Origin: a virus
DNA length: 24,595 nt
Reading direction: 5' to 3' (one strand)
IMG/VR virus record: IMGVR_UViG_3300035698_024691
Span: 1 to 24,595 of that record
Shown here piece after piece: positions 3,116 to 11,745 of the stretch. The notes below the pieces were generated by a model. The model ran no database searches, was not told the DNA's origin, and saw only the letters and a program-made list of their open reading frames with translations. Both the position numbers and the translations under genes were made by a program. Each line of letters starts with the position of its first letter. The stretch's first letter is position 1.

Positions 3116-6100
3116 ATGGCTGAGCAAACTTTCAGATCACCAAAATTTATAGACAGAGAAATTGATCTTACAGCTCGTCAAGAGGGACCAGTTGGTATAC
3201 CAGCAGGTATTATTGGAACTGCTGACCGTGGTCCCGCATTTGTACCCGTAACTTTAGGTTCATTCGCTGATTTTGAATCTAGATTTGGTTCATTAAATCC
3301 AAAACACGTTGCTGGATATGCAATGGAAAGATGGTTGGCCAATAAGACAGCAGGAACCTTTATGAGAGTTCTTGGAGCTGGCGCAAATGATACAGTTGAC
3401 GATATTGAAAAAACAAGAATTACAAATCAAGTTCGAAATGCTGGTTTTGTTGTAACGGGAACGGTGAGTGTGCCGGATGGCAGAAGTGTAGGTTCTACAC
3501 AGTTTCTGGTTGCCAAACATACCACAACAACCAACGAAACTCTCGGTATGCCAATCTTTACCGACAATGACTCATTCACGGCAACAGCTGCTTCGGAAGA
3601 CGCATATGTCGTAAGAGGTGTTTTATTTAGCACTTCTGGTTCAAGAGTTATGATATTGAATGGTGACGAAGCTGTCCCGACTGACTTGACTTTGTCTGAT
3701 GACCTTGCAACTTTGGATTCAAATTCAAATTTCAAGATCGTTATTTCTTCATCTGTTGGAATTACCACACTTACAAGTTCACTCGATCCAGGCAGTTCCA
3801 ACTATATTGGTAAAATACTTAATACAAATCCTGATAAATTTTCAACATTGAATCATCTTCTTTATTTAGATTTTTCTGTTGATGCAGAAGTTGCTGCAGT
3901 TTCAACTGATGCCGATTCTGTTGGTATCCTTTCTGGAACAAGAAATACTTCAGATAGTTCTGGAGATACTACGTTTGCATTTCAGGATGCTTATGGACAT
4001 TTCGATACGAGATTCAAATCAGCGGTAACATCAAAAATTATTTCACAACCTTTTGGTACTTCAGAATTTGATTTATTTCATTTTGAAGCATTGGATGATG
4101 GTGCATGGCCCAATACGAAAGTTAAAATTTCCATTGCCAACATCCGTGGTTCAACTGACCCAAGCAATCCTTATGGATACTTTGAGGTTCAAGTAAGAGA
4201 CTGGAATGATACAGATCAATCTCCTCAAATTCTTGAAAGATTTCCTAATTGTAATCTTGACCCAAGAGACGATAACTATATTGCTGCTAGAATCGGCGAT
4301 AGAAAAATTCGTTATGCTTTCGATGCAGATAGTAATGAAGAGCGTAGAATTATTGACGAAGGAAGATATGATAATCGCTCAAGACTAATAAGAGTTGTTG
4401 TTGAGAATTCTGTTGAAAAAAGATTGGTTCCTGCGAAATCATTACCATTTGGATTTAGAGGACTAAATGTTCTTAAAACAACCGACAGTAACAGCGATGG
4501 AGGTCTTGGTGGTAACCTAAGACTTGGTGGTAGTGGATCAATCAGTCAATTATCATCTTCAATTGTTCCGCCATTACCGTATCGTTTCAAATTGACACGC
4601 GGTGCAGTTTCAACAACAGGTTTCGCTGGAAACCCAGGAACATCCGAAGAAGTTGATGGAAGACTTTATTGGGGCGCAAAACTAGAAAGAAATAAAGTTC
4701 CACTAAATTCTAATATAACTAAAGAAAAGAGTAATCTTTCTACAGCATATTCAAAAATGCATGGTTTGCTTGGATTAGATGTATTAGTTTCTGGTACCGC
4801 AGTTGATGATTTCAATGAAAATAAATTCACGTTAGCCAGAGTAGCTTTTTCTAATGGTACCGTAACAGAACTAACTGGCACAGCAGCAGATCATATTAAA
4901 GAAGCTGCCTACCTTAGAAATTCCAACCCAGATTCATCCGAATATAAAGTAAGTGATGCCATCCTTGGCTCACGAATAACATTGGGAACATTGATAAATC
5001 TTACATCTTCTGTTGATTTTAATAGATTTCAAGATTTCACAAAATTCACAACAATTATGTATGGTGGTTTTGATGGACTTAATATTCTTGATAAGAATGA
5101 TGGTCTTATGAATGATAAGGCATCTAGTTCAGATACGGGCGGCAGCGCAGAGTTGGGAAGAGTATCTCCTGGACTTGCTTACAATCCCTCCGGTGAAGGT
5201 AAGTTGAATAACTCTGTTGTAAGTTATAGAACAGCAGCCAAGATTTTGACAGATCCGTTTACTCTTTCTTCTAACGGATTCTCTATCCCGTCTGTAAATC
5301 TTATTGCAGTACCAGGTATTAGAGACTCTTTTGTAACAGATTATGTTTCTGAAGAAACAAAGAACTTCTCATTGGCGATGTATGTTATGGACATACCTGC
5401 TTATGATCAAACCGGGATAAGATTGTTTGATGATAGTTCTGAACGACCAGCTGTTAGAAAGACGGCCGAACTGTTTGATGGAAGAGCAATTGACAACAAT
5501 TATGTTGCAACATATTTTCCAGATATTGTAGCAGAAGATAATATCAATAATAGAAGAGTTGATTTGCCGGCATCTGTTGCAGCAATGGCTGCACTTGGAT
5601 TCAACGATCGTGTTGCATTCCCATGGTTTGCGCCAGCTGGTTTCAATCGCGGTTCATTGGATTTTGTAACAAATATTGCGGTAAGATTGACGGCAGGAGA
5701 CAGAGACATTCTTTATGATGCAAGAATTAATCCAATTGCAAACTTCCCCAATGAAGGATTTGTAATTTTTGGACAAAAGAATTTGCAACAATTACGTTCT
5801 GCTTTGGATCGAGTAAATGTTCGTCGTCTTCTTCTTACTGTAAAACGTATTGTAAGCGAAATCGGAAGAACAATTACATTCGATCAGAATCGACCAGCTG
5901 TACGTGCTCGTTTCGTAAGTCAAGCTGTGCCACGACTTGGTTTGATTCAGGCTCAATCTGGTATCGAAAGATTTGATGTTGTTATGGATGACAGAAATAA
6001 CAGCCAAGAAGATATCGAGCAAAACAAAGTAAATGGAAGAATCGTAATTGTCCCAACAAGGGCAGTCGAATATATTGCAGTCGACTTTATTATCACAAAT

Positions 6101-6124
6101 GCAGGTGTAAGTTTCGATGTTTAA
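3116..6124 (+). CDS. gp18: Contractile tail sheath protein 1
   Basis: A 1002-aa sheath protein, much longer than T4 gp18 (659 aa). The N-terminal signature at residues 26-46 includes GIPAGIIGTADRGPAFVPVT. The C-terminal polymerisation domain contains FPWFAPAGFNRG from residue 835, SALDRVNVRRLLL near 895-907, and near the end VPTRAVEYIAVDFIITN, all hallmarks of myophage sheaths. The extra length lies in the middle (about residues 110-500), which is Ser/Thr/Asp-rich and probably forms outward-facing inserted domains. The start is set by AAGGAG at 3102-3107, 8 nt before ATG. The product polymerises around the tube and contracts to drive it through the envelope. It is followed after 44 nt by a paralogue of nearly the same length. 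Confidence 0.95.
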   Translation: MAEQTFRSPKFIDREIDLTARQEGPVGIPAGIIGTADRGPAFVPVTLGSFADFESRFGSLNPKHVAGYAMERWLANKTAGTFMRVLGAGANDTVDDIEKTRITNQVRNAGFVVTGTVSVPDGRSVGSTQFLVAKHTTTTNETLGMPIFTDNDSFTATAASEDAYVVRGVLFSTSGSRVMILNGDEAVPTDLTLSDDLATLDSNSNFKIVISSSVGITTLTSSLDPGSSNYIGKILNTNPDKFSTLNHLLYLDFSVDAEVAAVSTDADSVGILSGTRNTSDSSGDTTFAFQDAYGHFDTRFKSAVTSKIISQPFGTSEFDLFHFEALDDGAWPNTKVKISIANIRGSTDPSNPYGYFEVQVRDWNDTDQSPQILERFPNCNLDPRDDNYIAARIGDRKIRYAFDADSNEERRIIDEGRYDNRSRLIRVVVENSVEKRLVPAKSLPFGFRGLNVLKTTDSNSDGGLGGNLRLGGSGSISQLSSSIVPPLPYRFKLTRGAVSTTGFAGNPGTSEEVDGRLYWGAKLERNKVPLNSNITKEKSNLSTAYSKMHGLLGLDVLVSGTAVDDFNENKFTLARVAFSNGTVTELTGTAADHIKEAAYLRNSNPDSSEYKVSDAILGSRITLGTLINLTSSVDFNRFQDFTKFTTIMYGGFDGLNILDKNDGLMNDKASSSDTGGSAELGRVSPGLAYNPSGEGKLNNSVVSYRTAAKILTDPFTLSSNGFSIPSVNLIAVPGIRDSFVTDYVSEETKNFSLAMYVMDIPAYDQTGIRLFDDSSERPAVRKTAELFDGRAIDNNYVATYFPDIVAEDNINNRRVDLPASVAAMAALGFNDRVAFPWFAPAGFNRGSLDFVTNIAVRLTAGDRDILYDARINPIANFPNEGFVIFGQKNLQQLRSALDRVNVRRLLLTVKRIVSEIGRTITFDQNRPAVRARFVSQAVPRLGLIQAQSGIERFDVVMDDRNNSQEDIEQNKVNGRIVIVPTRAVEYIAVDFIITNAGVSFDV

Positions 6125-6168: not shown

Positions 6169-9100
6169 ATGGCAGAATTGACATTTAAAAGTGCAGGCGT
6201 AACTGCAACCGAGATTGATCTAAGTGGACCCAGCGTTACTGGTCCAACCGGCACACCTGCAGGTATCATCGGGACAGCTACTCGTGGTCCCGCATTTGTA
6301 CCCGTAACTCTTGCAAATCTCCAGAATTTTGAGGCAAAATTTGGAAAGTCAGATGGTGAAAAGTTTGGACCACTAGCTGCCGGACAATGGTTTAAAAATG
6401 CAAATGCTCTTGTGTATTTGAGAGTGCTAGGAGTTGGAAGAGGAGATCAAAGACTAACAACAGGTAACAATGCAGGAAGTGTAGAAAGTGCTGGTTTTGT
6501 TGTTGGAGAAGAACAACCTCGCGACTCAGGAAATTTTGGCGGCAATGTTTATGCTGTCAGTGAAGGTGAACCAGGCAGAACATATGTTATCGGTTGTTAC
6601 ATGAGTGAGTCAGCTGGTTCTGATGTATTTTCAGCGGCTGGCATTCAAAATAGTGATCAAGCACATCCAATAATTCGTGGAATTATCATGGCTGCTTCTG
6701 GTGTTATACCATTGTTATCTTCTAGCTTTGGAGGAAACTCAATTGCACCTGTTTCAACCGATCCAGCAACAGCTGGGACTGGATCACTTAAAGGACAAAT
6801 TACAGGCTCGGTTGTGTTGCTCGACGGAGCAACAAGTAAGCAAGAATTTGTTTTACTTCTTAATGGTCATGTAGGATCTGATTCTTCATATCCGAATGTA
6901 ATTACGGCATCTTTTGACTCAACAGCTCCCAACTATTTTGGTAATGTATTGAATAGTGATGTATCTAGCCTTCAAAAAGCTGGACATTACTTATATACAC
7001 ATTATGATATTCATTCTAGTGTTGCAGTTGTTACAGGAACATCATTATTGGACGATACTGGTGTATTGTCTGCTTCCACAGTAAATGAAGAATTAGCATT
7101 CATTACAACTTCTTCTTTGGGAAGAAATCTTGGAAGTTCTACTGTTCCCAACTTTGAAAACTTTGAAGATAGATTCAGTAGCCCAAGAACACCATATGTT
7201 ACATCTCAAAGATTTGGTGGTGTACCTGTAAATCTATTTAGAATTCATGGTCTTTCTGACGGAGAAAGAGATGCACAAAGTTGGAAATTCTCAATTGAGA
7301 ATATTACTCCATCGCAGAGTGAAGAAGATAAATTTGGTAGATTTGATCTTCTGATTAGAGATATAGCCGACACCGATGACAGCAAGAGAGTTATTGAATC
7401 ATATAGAGGAGTAACACTTAATCCGTCTGACGAGAGATTCATCGGTAAAGCAATTGGTGATGAAAATAGATTCTTTGATTTTGATCGTCAAACTGGTTTG
7501 CAAAAACTTGTTGTTGATGGAAAATATCCAAATGTTTCTGGAAGAATTCGTGTAGAACTTTCTAGTGACGTTATGAATGGCGACGTTGAAGCAACAGCTT
7601 TGCCGTCTGGGTTTCGAGGAAAATCACACCTTATAACATCCGGCTCAGATCCACTTACTTCAATTGGAGGATTCTTTGTTGATGCTGCAACCGATGTTCT
7701 TAATCGTGCTATTGAAATGCCATTACCATTGCGTAAAAACATTGTAATTGGTGTGGATCCGAAGGACGTAGTCAATAGAAATCTTTATTGGGGCGTACAG
7801 TTCCAACAAATTAGTTCTGTAACTGAACCTAATAGAAGTGCTGCACAAGAAAAAACGATTCTTAGTTTTGCTAAATTCCTCCCAGATTTTATGACAACAA
7901 ATCAAAACGTTGTTGCTGGAGACAATGAAGGAGTTGCCGATACTGCGGAAAATGGCATTCTTGATGCCGACAGATTTAACAATAATGCGTTTAGTCTTGA
8001 AAGAATTCAAGTTGTTACTGCTTCAAATGGTAGAGCAAATCTAAAAACTGTAGATCAATGGACATATGTTCGTGAAGGAAATATTGTTCCTGACGAAACT
8101 GCAAAAACAAGAGCATTAAGTATTGAAACAGATTTGGTACTTCCTGGCGTTCGTTCTCTATCTAAATTCTCCTTTTTTATGCAAGGTGGATTTGATGGTG
8201 TAAACAGTTTCAATTCAGCTGAATCTAGACTAGATAATAGAGCCATAATTGAAGAAATGAATTTTCTTGCTCGCGGACAAGACGAAGGTCCAACTGTTCG
8301 TGCATATAGAAAAGCTCTTGATGTAATGGGAGAGCCAAGTGAAGTTGACATCAATATTTTAGCAATTCCTGGTATTAGACATAGTGTTGTTACAGATGCA
8401 GCTGTATTATCTGTTGAAGGAAGATTTGATGCAATTTACCTTATGGACATTGAAGAAAGAGATACAGTCAATTCTGTTGTAACGTCATCTCTTCAAGAAA
8501 TCAATGTTGCTAATACGGTAACCGATTTTGCCGGAAGAGCTTTAGATTCAAGTTTTGCGGCGGCATACTTCCCAGATATTATCGTTAGAGATCCCGTTAC
8601 AAATACAAATGTCCGTGTTCCACCTTCCGTTGGTGTAATCGGAGCATTCGCTTTGAATGATAAAATTGGATTTCCATGGTTTGCACCGGCTGGTTTCACT
8701 CGTGGTGTCATGGCTGATGTTCCTAGATCAGCTGTAATGCTCAATAGAGATAATCTTGATGATCTTTATGATGTAGACATCAATCCTATTACAACTTTTC
8801 CTGGTGGACCTGGGGTCGTTGTGTGGGGCCAAAAGACCCTCCTTGCAACACAAAGTGCTTTGGATCGAGTTAATGTTCGTCGCCTTCTTCTTGAATTGCG
8901 TCGTCGTGTGAAAACTGTAGCTAATAGCTTCCTATTCGAACAAAATAGAGAAGATACTATCAATAGATTCTCATCTCGTGTAAATCCAATTCTTAGCAGA
9001 ATCCAGGAACAATCTGGTGTTGATCGTTATCGCGTAAGAATCGATACAACAACAACAACACAAGCAGATATTGAAAACAATACAATCCGTGGAATTATCT

Positions 9101-9174
9101 ATATCCAACCCACTAGAACTATTGAGTTCGTTGCCTTAGACTTTTTGGTAACAAACAATGGCGTAACGATATAA
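6169..9174 (+). CDS. gp18: Contractile tail sheath protein 2 (paralogue)
   Basis: A 1001-aa second sheath protein. It shares with its neighbour the N-terminal TPAGIIGTATRGPAFVPVT block, FPWFAPAGFTRG at residue 835 (the same residue number), ALDRVNVRRLLLELRRR from residue 897, and the C-terminal QPTRTIEFVALDFLVTNNG strand. The middle third diverges strongly. Equal length and register of the conserved blocks point to an old tandem duplication followed by divergence of the exposed domains. The start is supported by CAGGAG at 6157-6162, 6 nt before ATG. The two products could form a mixed sheath or be used as alternatives; sequence alone cannot tell. The tail tube gene follows 53 nt downstream. 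Confidence 0.95.
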   Translation: MAELTFKSAGVTATEIDLSGPSVTGPTGTPAGIIGTATRGPAFVPVTLANLQNFEAKFGKSDGEKFGPLAAGQWFKNANALVYLRVLGVGRGDQRLTTGNNAGSVESAGFVVGEEQPRDSGNFGGNVYAVSEGEPGRTYVIGCYMSESAGSDVFSAAGIQNSDQAHPIIRGIIMAASGVIPLLSSSFGGNSIAPVSTDPATAGTGSLKGQITGSVVLLDGATSKQEFVLLLNGHVGSDSSYPNVITASFDSTAPNYFGNVLNSDVSSLQKAGHYLYTHYDIHSSVAVVTGTSLLDDTGVLSASTVNEELAFITTSSLGRNLGSSTVPNFENFEDRFSSPRTPYVTSQRFGGVPVNLFRIHGLSDGERDAQSWKFSIENITPSQSEEDKFGRFDLLIRDIADTDDSKRVIESYRGVTLNPSDERFIGKAIGDENRFFDFDRQTGLQKLVVDGKYPNVSGRIRVELSSDVMNGDVEATALPSGFRGKSHLITSGSDPLTSIGGFFVDAATDVLNRAIEMPLPLRKNIVIGVDPKDVVNRNLYWGVQFQQISSVTEPNRSAAQEKTILSFAKFLPDFMTTNQNVVAGDNEGVADTAENGILDADRFNNNAFSLERIQVVTASNGRANLKTVDQWTYVREGNIVPDETAKTRALSIETDLVLPGVRSLSKFSFFMQGGFDGVNSFNSAESRLDNRAIIEEMNFLARGQDEGPTVRAYRKALDVMGEPSEVDINILAIPGIRHSVVTDAAVLSVEGRFDAIYLMDIEERDTVNSVVTSSLQEINVANTVTDFAGRALDSSFAAAYFPDIIVRDPVTNTNVRVPPSVGVIGAFALNDKIGFPWFAPAGFTRGVMADVPRSAVMLNRDNLDDLYDVDINPITTFPGGPGVVVWGQKTLLATQSALDRVNVRRLLLELRRRVKTVANSFLFEQNREDTINRFSSRVNPILSRIQEQSGVDRYRVRIDTTTTTQADIENNTIRGIIYIQPTRTIEFVALDFLVTNNGVTI

Positions 9175-9227: not shown

Positions 9228-9716
9228 ATGGTAGACGTCCTAGAAGTACAAGATATGTTAGCAAATACGTACGAACCTAAAAGAAAATTTAGGTGGCTAT
9301 TAGCTATTGAAGGTATTGACTCATTCCTCTTAAAGAGTGCAGCAAGACCAACTATATCAACAGAAGAATTCACAATTGATTACATCAATGCTACAAGGTA
9401 CCTCGCAGGTAAATATACATTTGGTGAATTGGCCGTAACATTGCATGATGCTATTGCACCATCCGGCGCACAGCAAGTTATGGAATGGATTCGCTTGGCG
9501 CATGAGCATGTGACTCAGCGTGGTGGTTATGCAGATTTTTACAAGCGTGATATTCAATTGAAAATGCTTGATCCTCTTGGAGCCGTCGTGGAACTTTGGG
9601 ATCTCAAAGGCTGCTTTGTTAAAGAAGCAAACTTTGGTGAGCTTTCATATGATAATAACGAATCTGCAGATATTGCATTAACTTTAAGATTCGACTTAGC
9701 GGTACTTCAGTACTAA
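9228..9716 (+). CDS. gp19: Tail tube protein (T4 gp19 family)
   Basis: A 162-aa protein, matching the 163-aa length of T4 gp19. It opens with DVLEVQDMLANTYEPKRKFRW and continues with the family's typical order: a strand around LLAIEGIDSFLLKSAARPTI, the EEFTIDYINATRYLAGKY segment at about residues 45-62, then a long helix (QQVMEWIRLAHEHV). It ends with alternating strands (ADIALTLRFDLAVLQY). It forms the hexameric rings of the inner tube through which DNA passes. The start is set by AAGGAG at 9213-9218. It follows the sheath pair as in T4. The stop is followed 18 nt later by the hairpin of the inserted endonuclease, which may also end part of the tube transcript. Confidence 0.93.
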   Translation: MVDVLEVQDMLANTYEPKRKFRWLLAIEGIDSFLLKSAARPTISTEEFTIDYINATRYLAGKYTFGELAVTLHDAIAPSGAQQVMEWIRLAHEHVTQRGGYADFYKRDIQLKMLDPLGAVVELWDLKGCFVKEANFGELSYDNNESADIALTLRFDLAVLQY

Positions 9717-9730
9717 TTTTTAGATTAGTA

Positions 9731-9759
9731 CTGCCAAAACACCTGTTTATGTGTATAAT
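9731..9759 (+). promoter_or_regulatory. Possible promoter inside the endonuclease leader hairpin
   Basis: A perfect TATAAT lies at 9754-9759. Seventeen bases upstream is CTGCCA (9731-9736), which matches 4 of 6 positions of the sigma70 -35 box. Initiation would be expected near 9765-9767, inside the right arm of the inverted repeat and 7-9 nt before the GTG start of the HNH gene. A transcript made here would lack the left arm and leave the ribosome site free. TATAAT is common by chance in DNA this A+T-rich, so the site is only plausible because of where it lies. Confidence 0.35.
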
Positions 9760-9774
9760 GTAACAGGTGTTTTG
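9735..9774 (+). promoter_or_regulatory. 13-bp leader hairpin masking the endonuclease ribosome site
   Basis: CAAAACACCTGTT (9735-9747) and AACAGGTGTTTTG (9762-9774) are perfect reverse complements around a 14-nt loop. The right arm carries the only Shine-Dalgarno-like bases (AGGTG, 9765-9769) and the G of the GTG start codon (9774-9776) of the HNH gene. Read-through RNA from the tube gene would therefore fold the ribosome site shut. The hairpin could also act as a weak terminator for the tube transcript, since the right arm contains TTTT, but there is no long U-run after it. Confidence 0.65.
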
Positions 9775-10544
9775 TGCTTAAATGTCCCGAGTGTAAAAAA
9801 GAATATGATAATGAAATTTCTTTAAATCATCATTGGGTACGTGGACATAAATTACAATCTAAAGATTTATATAAATTTTTGAATGAAAATTATATAGTTT
9901 GTGCGTGCGGTTGTGGAGAAGAACCAAACTACAAAAGCATAACTAAAGGATTTAAACTATATGTTCATGGACATAATAAAAAACCTCCAATCGTATATGA
10001 TAATGGCATTGAAAAATATTGTCCAAAATGTAAGAAGGTTTTATTATTAAGTAATTTTGGAATAAGAAACGATAAACAAAAATATCAATCTTATTGTAAT
10101 GGTTGTTGTTTGAGATATAGGAATGAGCGAAGTTCTATAATAAATAAAAAATCTTCTGAGTGGTACTACAAGAATAAAAAGAGAGTATTTGCTAGGATGG
10201 CTTATCGTTTTAAAAATGATATTAGTTATCGCATTACACTAAATATGAGAAGATATGTTGGAGATAGAATAAGAAATAACATTATACCAGCTAAAAAATA
10301 TTATAAAACAATGAAACTTCTTGATTGTTCAGTTGAGACATTAAAAGAACATTTGGAGAACAAATTTATAGATGGAATGAGCTGGAAAAATTATGGGCAA
10401 AAAGGTTGGCATATTGATCATATAGTTCCATGTTCAAGTTTTGATTTGAGAGACGTAGAGCAACAAAAGAAATGTTTTCACTATACAAACCTCCAACCTT
10501 TGTGGTGGTATGATAATATAAAAAAGGGCAATAAAATTATATGA
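9774..10544 (+). CDS. Zinc-finger HNH homing endonuclease
   Basis: A 256-aa protein. The only in-frame start near the N-terminal finger is GTG 9774, because a TAA lies in frame at 9756-9758. Domains in order: a C2H2 finger (C4, C7, H20, H25); a CACGCG...GH knuckle (C43, C45, C47, H65, H67); a four-Cys ribbon (C83, C86, C108, C111); a basic linker; and a C-terminal HNH nuclease core with WHIDHIVP (D215, H216), NLQPLW (N239) and DNIKKGN (N248). This is the usual make-up of free-standing phage homing endonucleases, which cut an unoccupied allele so that repair copies the gene across. It sits in the gap between tail tube and gp26-like genes and its stop overlaps an ATG (ATGA, 10541-10544). Expression is probably controlled by the leader hairpin. 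The recognition site is unknown. Confidence 0.92.
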   Translation: MLKCPECKKEYDNEISLNHHWVRGHKLQSKDLYKFLNENYIVCACGCGEEPNYKSITKGFKLYVHGHNKKPPIVYDNGIEKYCPKCKKVLLLSNFGIRNDKQKYQSYCNGCCLRYRNERSSIINKKSSEWYYKNKKRVFARMAYRFKNDISYRITLNMRRYVGDRIRNNIIPAKKYYKTMKLLDCSVETLKEHLENKFIDGMSWKNYGQKGWHIDHIVPCSSFDLRDVEQQKKCFHYTNLQPLWWYDNIKKGNKII

Positions 10545-10704
10545 GAAACATTAAGACAAAATTTATTATTGTTTAGATGCACTAAAGAAAAGTAAACATA
10601 TTGATTTAGATAAAATTTTTATAGAATTAGATTTATTAGTTTTTCATGGAGAAGATGCAGTTACACATTATGAAGATACCATCGAAGGAATAAAAAAGAA
10701 ATAA
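10541..10704 (+). pseudogene. Small frameshifted ORF after the endonuclease
   Basis: ATG 10541 overlaps the endonuclease stop and reads MRNIKTKFIIV before TAG at 10574. A second frame, open from 10555 to TAA 10702-10704, has no start codon but encodes a protein-like stretch with IYYCLDALKKSKHIDLDKIF and ending EDTIEGIKKK. A -1 step at the AAAA run (10558-10561) joins the two into one 55-aa product, so one lost A, a programmed slip or a read error would all explain it. I do not recognise the product. The join is inferred; the start-less open stretch is seen directly. Confidence 0.5.
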
Positions 10705-10893
10705 ATTAGTTTAACAGTTTGTTGAATGTATTTATTGGTGGATCCAATGGATTCATTTCTTTTTCTTTTTCCTTGGGCACGTCATGTGCCCATTTTTTTC
10801 CAAATTTTCATCTTTCCTAGTATTTATTATTGAAGGCTTTAACAAGCTGTAAAAATAGCTTATTTTAATAATAGGCAATATACGAGGAAAAGT
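10705..10893 (+). other. Non-coding spacer before the gp26-like gene
   Basis: No credible gene is seen here. The stretch holds a pyrimidine-rich run (10755-10774), a strong terminator, and a weaker stem AACAAGCT / AGCTTATT (10841-10848 with 10857-10864, one mismatch) that ends 29 nt before the next ATG. GAGGAA at 10884-10889 is the Shine-Dalgarno sequence of the next gene. A promoter restarting transcription after the terminator is expected in 10800-10880, but I see no convincing -35/-10 pair. Confidence 0.5.
10775..10799 (+). terminator. Rho-independent terminator
   Basis: GGGCAC (10775-10780), a 5-nt loop GTCAT, and GTGCCC (10786-10791) form a G+C-rich stem, extended by a T-A pair at 10774 and 10792. 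Seven T residues follow directly (10793-10799). It would end transcripts from the tube/endonuclease side and separate them from the gp26-like/tape measure unit. On the minus strand no T-run follows the stem, so it acts in one direction. Confidence 0.85.
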
Positions 10894-11745
10894 ATGGAAG
10901 AAACCAAAGACGTAACTGAGGCAAAGACACCGGATCAAAGAACGGGAAATCAAGTCTTCAACCCAGCCCAAGGAAATGTATCATTTAAACCTGTTGATGA
11001 TGTGCCGTACGAGACAGTACCACTGCCGTCAAGAGGTTCAATTTATCCTGAAGGAAGTGCACTACATTGCGAAGAAAGAATAGACATTCGGGTCATGACA
11101 GCGAGAGAGGAAGATATTCTTACTTCTCAGGCTTTGATCAAAAGAGGAACAGTTTTAACTGAATTGTTGAGATCATGTATTATGAATCCGAATATTGATG
11201 TTAATGAAATGATAGCTGGAGACAGAAATGCTATTATGGTTGCATTGAGAATTACTGGGTATGGCGCAGATTATCCGGCAGAAATTGAGTGTTCTTCATG
11301 TAGTCATCGTTATGAACATGATTTTGATTTATCAAGGCTTGGAATTAAGAGATTAGAAATTGAGCCTGCTGGATTGGGACAGAATCTTTTTGGATTTAAG
11401 TTGCCGATGAGTGAGACAAATGTTTTATTTAAATTTCTTACAGGACAGGATCAGGAAGAGATAGAGATTATCCAGGACAAGATGAAAAGGCTTGGAAATT
11501 TACGTGACAGCTTTGTAACGACAAAATTGAAGGCTTGCATCATGGAGATTGATGGAGTAGAAGATAAGGCACAAATTTCAAGATTTGTTGATCGTATGAG
11601 AGCTGGAGACTCCAAGGCATTAAGAAGATATATGGATAAGAATGAGCCTGGAATTCTTATGAGACAAGACGCATCTTGCCCCGCATGCGGATATACCGAA
11701 GAGGTGGGTATGCCGCTAGGGCCGCAGTTCTTTTGGCCTGAATAG
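10894..11745 (+). CDS. gp26: Base-plate protein of the T4 gp26 family
   Basis: A 283-aa protein with the features of the T4 base-plate gp26 family: VPLPSRGSIYP with PSRG at residues 45-48, the REEDILTSQALIKRGTVLTE helix, GDRNAIMVALRITGYGADYP, and the C133-x-x-C136 knuckle in IECSSCSHRY. A second Cys pair, C262 and C265 (CPACGY), lies near the C-terminus, so the two pairs may bind one zinc or two. The start is supported by GAGGAA (10884-10889). In T4 this protein belongs to the baseplate hub. Here the gene lies between tube and tape measure genes, where other myophages keep tail assembly chaperones. A hub component or a factor loading the tape measure are both possible. Confidence 0.85.
   Translation: MEETKDVTEAKTPDQRTGNQVFNPAQGNVSFKPVDDVPYETVPLPSRGSIYPEGSALHCEERIDIRVMTAREEDILTSQALIKRGTVLTELLRSCIMNPNIDVNEMIAGDRNAIMVALRITGYGADYPAEIECSSCSHRYEHDFDLSRLGIKRLEIEPAGLGQNLFGFKLPMSETNVLFKFLTGQDQEEIEIIQDKMKRLGNLRDSFVTTKLKACIMEIDGVEDKAQISRFVDRMRAGDSKALRRYMDKNEPGILMRQDASCPACGYTEEVGMPLGPQFFWPE

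Follow-up and report, generated by a model that had tools for sequence, protein, structure and literature searches.

A promoter nested in a start-region hairpin as a probable insulated gene start of homing endonucleases behind phage tail tube genes

How can a free-standing homing endonuclease gene be controlled when it stands co-directionally behind a late structural gene? This question is raised by a virus DNA stretch of 24,595 nucleotides (IMGVR_UViG_3300035698_024691, positions 1 to 24,595; hereafter the window), a 24.6-kb fragment with a T4-like tail operon containing sheath, tail tube and baseplate hub genes, in which an HNH endonuclease gene is placed between the tail tube and baseplate hub genes (Table 1). 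The N-terminal module of the endonuclease has the pattern CPxC..H..H + CxCGCG..GH, and the HNH catalytic motif was read from the translation as WHIDHIVP...NLQPLWWYDNIKKGN. The window also holds two neighbouring tail sheath-like genes of ~1000 aa each (3116-6124 and 6169-9174), and a start-less open frame 3′ of the HNH stop (DALKKSKHIDLDKIFIELD..., 10545-10704) may be what is left of a longer endonuclease C-terminus.

Table 1. Features of the window around the start of the endonuclease gene.
Feature	Position	Strand	Basis
Tail tube gene (T4 gp19-like), co-directional, directly 5′ of the endonuclease gene	9228..9716	+	PF06841 at E 1.2e-5, short of the Pfam cutoff; phrog_4542 at E 4e-31
Smaller perfect 10-bp inverted repeat (9708-9717 / 9724-9733), across the tail tube stop and touching the -35 box	9708..9733	+	sequence; forms in the read-through fold
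-35-like hexamer CTGCCA, 4/6	9731..9736	+	promoter scan
Hairpin left arm, inside the -35/-10 spacer	9735..9747	+	sequence, fold
-10 hexamer TATAAT in the loop, 6/6	9754..9759	+	promoter scan
Hairpin right arm, with SD AGGTG (9765-9769), TTTT (9770-9773) and the first base of GTG	9762..9774	+	sequence, fold
Predicted transcription start, ~9766, within the right arm	9764..9768	+	inferred from -10 position
HNH / endonuclease VII-like homing endonuclease, 256 aa	9774..10544	+	phrog_1035, E 3e-11; N-terminal module common to the A1 family
Two ordinary terminator-like hairpins with T-runs, 3′ of the endonuclease gene	10737..10799	+	sequence scan
Baseplate hub-like gene, next in the tail operon	10894..11745	+	PF12322, E 9.5e-13; phrog_150, E 5e-16

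The endonuclease gene starts within a perfect 13-bp inverted repeat, CAAAACACCTGTT (9735-9747) and AACAGGTGTTTTG (9762-9774), with a loop of 14 nt. The RNA fold of this hairpin was predicted at -21.8 kcal/mol, compared with -10.2 ± 2.4 for shuffled sequences (z -4.8), and 0 of 200 shuffles were as good. The GTG at 9774 is the sole usable start codon, with an in-frame TAA at 9756 and no start codon in between, and AGGTG, a right-arm sequence spaced 6 nt from the start, provides the sole SD-like bases. The hairpin, the GTG start, the weak SD and the TATAAT in the loop are all present where an earlier note had placed them. The arrangement CTGCCA-17-TATAAT (9731-9759) was recovered independently, with 10/12 matches, among the four best of 18 promoter-like sites in 3 kb of the window. 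Because these 18 sites are no excess over the 13.2 ± 3.8 expected, the window promoter alone carries no significance, which instead derives from its relatives. Small hairpins were also seen in several relatives (e.g., L040, L097, L177 and L209) at the place that matches the smaller repeat of the window.

We collected 80 tail-tube relatives. The locus occurs both with and without an endonuclease gene, that is, as an optional insertion beside a putative target gene. Many endonuclease-less relatives have an ordinary terminator at the site; in most endonuclease-bearing ones, the gene start is built into a hairpin. Of 51 non-redundant endonuclease genes that follow a T4-gp19-like tail-tube gene in the same direction, 47 had a strong start-region hairpin, versus 2 of 19 endonuclease relatives at other positions (P = 1e-10, nominal). 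All P values given here are nominal, since the representatives were thinned only by shared 6-mers and related leaders are not independent. In the class at other positions, 19 of 21 representatives are opposite-strand genes located next to the tail-tube start on its upstream side. These divergent relatives belong to the same enzyme family, are not exposed to late read-through and, apart from a few, have no hairpin.

One explanation is that the hairpin only terminates transcription of the tail tube gene; the endonuclease gene would then have landed on it by chance, with TATAAT being incidental to an AT-rich loop. This would fit the strong hairpin found just 3′ of the tail tube stop in 29 of 40 non-redundant endonuclease-less relatives, the TTTT at the 3′ end of the right arm in 20 of 47 endonuclease hairpins, and the lack of a second terminator downstream in 35 of 39 endonuclease loci, where the leader hairpin would take that role. 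The leader hairpin does occupy the terminator place of the tail-tube gene, a position that the earlier note had overlooked, and it likely terminates transcription where a T-run follows and where no other terminator is present downstream. The window hairpin has a 14-nt loop and TTTT only, within the arm, and the terminator scan made no call there. The presence of more terminators 3′ of the endonuclease gene in the window speaks against a terminator role alone. The comparison of promoters argues further against a terminator alone. With a nested promoter defined by a -10 and a -35 placed so that its own RNA retains ≤60% of the left arm, 36 of the 47 endonuclease hairpins contained one, compared with 2 of 29 plain terminators behind endonuclease-less tail-tube genes (P = 2e-9, nominal); the remaining 11/47 had none by the criteria used. 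Nested -10 hexamers numbered 37, against 14.6 expected when stems, loops and flanks were permuted, and the right arm holds the start codon or the SD in 40/47 hairpins. Tandem second endonucleases (L166, L183) each have a hairpin of their own, and the element therefore goes with the endonuclease and is more than an old terminator. On the single contig of L143 / L183, one tail tube gene is followed by a tandem pair of different endonuclease genes, and each of these has its own promoter-hairpin. A terminator met by chance is thus quite unlikely as a full account. Neither the window hairpin nor the promoter-hairpin arrangement, taken as a family trait, can be put down to chance.

The leaders follow two designs. 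In one, the right arm contains the SD and is followed by a T-run and ATG; in the other, the start codon itself lies in the right arm, with the -10 hexamer 5-8 nt upstream. The latter spacing was found at 17/51 loci, compared with 2.7 expected, and predicts leaderless RNA. The window, with a predicted leader of ~8 nt, is intermediate between the two. Unfused versions were also identified: in L138, a terminator is followed by TTGACA-17-TATACT and then ATG; in PA5oct, a terminator and then TTGACT-17-TATACT precede a Hef-like gene; and in KpV52 both the terminator and the promoter are annotated.

The arms were found to co-vary among relatives, as the comparison suggested in the earlier note had anticipated. 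An initial group of leaders had been selected by pairing, and the analysis was repeated on an unselected set of 27 Hef-like leaders, which were chosen without regard to pairing and aligned without gaps on the start codon. In register -15, 251 of 405 cells were paired. Another 14 registers had 139-182 paired cells, 500 shuffles gave no more than 231, and the mean pairwise identity of the left arm was 34%; pairing is therefore kept while the sequence changes. The stems differ in sequence, and compensatory change maintains their pairing; because the right arm is often protein-coding, the room for such change is mostly in the non-coding left arm. This bears on the alternative that the inverted repeat is a DNA operator for autorepression, or part of the homing site, and not an RNA hairpin. 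The palindrome of the window does overlap a promoter, and I-TevI binds to an operator that covers the promoter of its own gene (PMC2988022); however, the stem diverges while pairing is kept within one phage clade and beside one target gene, divergently placed relatives in the same enzyme family lack the element, and T-runs follow the right arm at many loci. An operator or homing site is accordingly very improbable.

The predicted effect on translation was as the earlier note had proposed, with read-through RNA shut and the promoter's own RNA open. In the window, the predicted unpaired probability of the SD/start region was 0.07 in read-through RNA versus 0.41 in the own RNA, and the predicted means over 49 loci were 0.19 and 0.54, respectively (P = 4e-11, nominal). 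Given the short T-run and the extra terminators at 10737-10799, the hairpin of the window probably acts mainly by blocking translation. The -35 of the window is weak, and the own RNA would begin with GGUG; with the SD cut short and GUG as start codon, its translation could be poor.

The timing of expression was assessed from promoter motifs. ATAYTTA occurs 25-50 nt upstream of the tail-tube start in 47 of 74 leaders (relatives L001-L080), against 2.8 expected, and is presumably the late promoter of this T4-like group. The T4-type TATAAATA late promoter, from which ATAYTTA differs, was rejected as the tail-tube motif (4/74 leaders versus 1.9 expected). Endonuclease leaders are enriched in TATAAT/TACAAT/TATATT, and sigma70 -35/-10 matches are better in them than in tail-tube leaders; the window loop has TATAAT, and no ATAYTTA was found in it. 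In T4 systems of the I-TevI type, early or middle transcripts arrive from upstream, and a late promoter lies inside. Under that scheme, the hairpin would block early translation and a late promoter in the loop would permit late translation. The geometry matches that of I-TevI, segB and Aeh1 mobE (PMC2988022); moreover, some loops of relatives hold TATATTTA, which includes the late motif, ATAYTTA being present in 10/48 endonuclease leaders (2.0 expected). Yet the gene upstream of the endonuclease is itself late, the window loop has TATAAT in place of ATAYTTA, and sigma70-like -35/-10 pairs characterize the endonuclease leaders taken together, leaving the I-TevI order a low, though not negligible, probability. 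The analogy with I-TevI timing drawn in the earlier note is probably inverted: with a late tail gene upstream and an inner promoter that lacks the tail-tube late motif, the expected order is the reverse of that in T4, and we infer early expression and late silencing for the window endonuclease. The loops that hold TATATTTA prevent extension of this timing to the whole family.

The endonucleases at these loci belong to three nuclease families, namely HNH (window, L005), TnsA-like PF08722 (L007, L049) and Hef-like (L022, L025, L061). The HNH and TnsA-like enzymes have a zinc-finger-like N-terminal module in common, and the Hef-like enzymes begin with a similar CPxC stretch. A full-length search with the window HNH enzyme returned one relative only; the shared N-terminal module was a far more productive query, and in this protein-only search 80 of 80 matches adjoin a same-strand tail-tube gene, a pattern that points to, without proving, a role of the module in directing insertion beside that gene. 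The exact stem sequence had no match in viral contigs because stems diverge completely, Rfam has no family for the element, and a nucleotide search of phage records yielded nothing beyond short HNH matches. Several further observations were made at these loci. Endonucleases are attracted to tail tube genes on either side, and the divergent Hef-like genes on the opposite strand (L179, L185-L229) stand upstream of the tail tube start, mostly at a distance of ~130-260 nt. The HNH relative at the tail-tube site of L005 (6550-8385, 611 aa) has its HNH part fused to a C-terminal DNA methylase (PF01555, just under cutoff). In L051, L073 and L075, a ACCTCTATGG...GTGGAGGT hairpin resembling the endonuclease leaders lies 3′ of the tail tube stop with no intact endonuclease downstream, and may be left over from endonuclease loss.

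Similar control occurs in transposons: in IS10, IS50 and IS200, read-through RNA folds over the transposase RBS and the own RNA does not, a protection from external transcription comparable to the scheme considered here for a homing endonuclease. A further case, in a cultured phage, is g230 of Yersinia phage phiR1-37, a Hef-like gene whose depositor-annotated terminator overlaps the RBS. Its leader, CCTCTCATGAACA...TGTTCATGAGAGG-TTTTT-ATG, whose loop contains TAAAAT (z -6.6), is the fused form behind a different gene; unlike the window, it belongs to a jumbo phage, the upstream gene encodes a structural RNA polymerase subunit and the -35 is poor. We know of no experiment on this leader.

Among T4 endonucleases, the leaders of I-TevI, I-TevII and I-TevIII likewise hide the RBS in read-through RNA and free it in an inner-promoter RNA without the left arm; these enzymes are intron-encoded with a late inner promoter, whereas the window enzyme is free-standing behind a late gene with a sigma70-like one. 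The earlier note had regarded the arrangement as new for a free-standing HNH enzyme. However, according to reviews, Aeh1 mobE (HNH) and T4 segB are free-standing endonucleases with a hairpin over the RBS and their own promoter (PMC2988022, PMC3014915); these promoters are given as late, that of segB being predicted in the review. They differ from the window in their target genes, and in the window the hairpin additionally takes the terminator position of a structural gene. A terminator at the 5′ end of the endonuclease gene that cuts read-through is also present in T4 mobE and segF, with about 30% termination in mobE (PMC2988022); there it lies within the coding region, and no nested promoter is described. 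The principle is therefore already published, including for free-standing and HNH enzymes, and the present case is not new in kind. What is added is its breadth, the compensatory maintenance, the dependence on transcription direction, the terminator position, and the likely sigma70 and leaderless variants; in a literature search of partial coverage, no paper describing these additions was found.

On balance, 9731-9776 is probably an insulated gene start, combining a read-through block with its own promoter, that is carried by the homing endonuclease. RNA polymerase arriving from the late tail genes would transcribe both arms, and the read-through RNA would fold, burying the SD and the start codon, with partial termination probable, so the endonuclease would not be made from it. 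Polymerase starting at the promoter, which has the left arm as its spacer and the -10 in the loop, would produce RNA beginning at ~9766. Without the left arm, this RNA could not form the hairpin and would be translated with almost no leader. The host-sigma70-like promoter makes early expression, followed by late silencing, the most likely timing. A more comprehensive proposal is that one 45-bp element combines a sigma70 promoter and a translational lock with the terminator of a late structural gene; that through it endonucleases of three nuclease families are expressed early, in many cases from leaderless mRNA, and shut off while late transcription proceeds; and that it travels with the endonuclease and replaces the terminator of the host gene. 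We put this forward tentatively, as an account somewhat less likely than not. If true, such a replacement would hinder clean deletion of the endonuclease.

Hairpin control of homing endonucleases is, in this perspective, recurrent and compensatorily maintained, and extends beyond a T4 curiosity. The device tracks direction, with the hairpin nearly always present downstream of and co-directional with a late gene, and nearly always absent when the endonuclease gene is divergent. With this dependence, why free-standing endonucleases are so tightly regulated becomes a question that comparison can test. A compact design rule is also suggested, in which a promoter with a hairpin arm as its spacer insulates genes from read-through.
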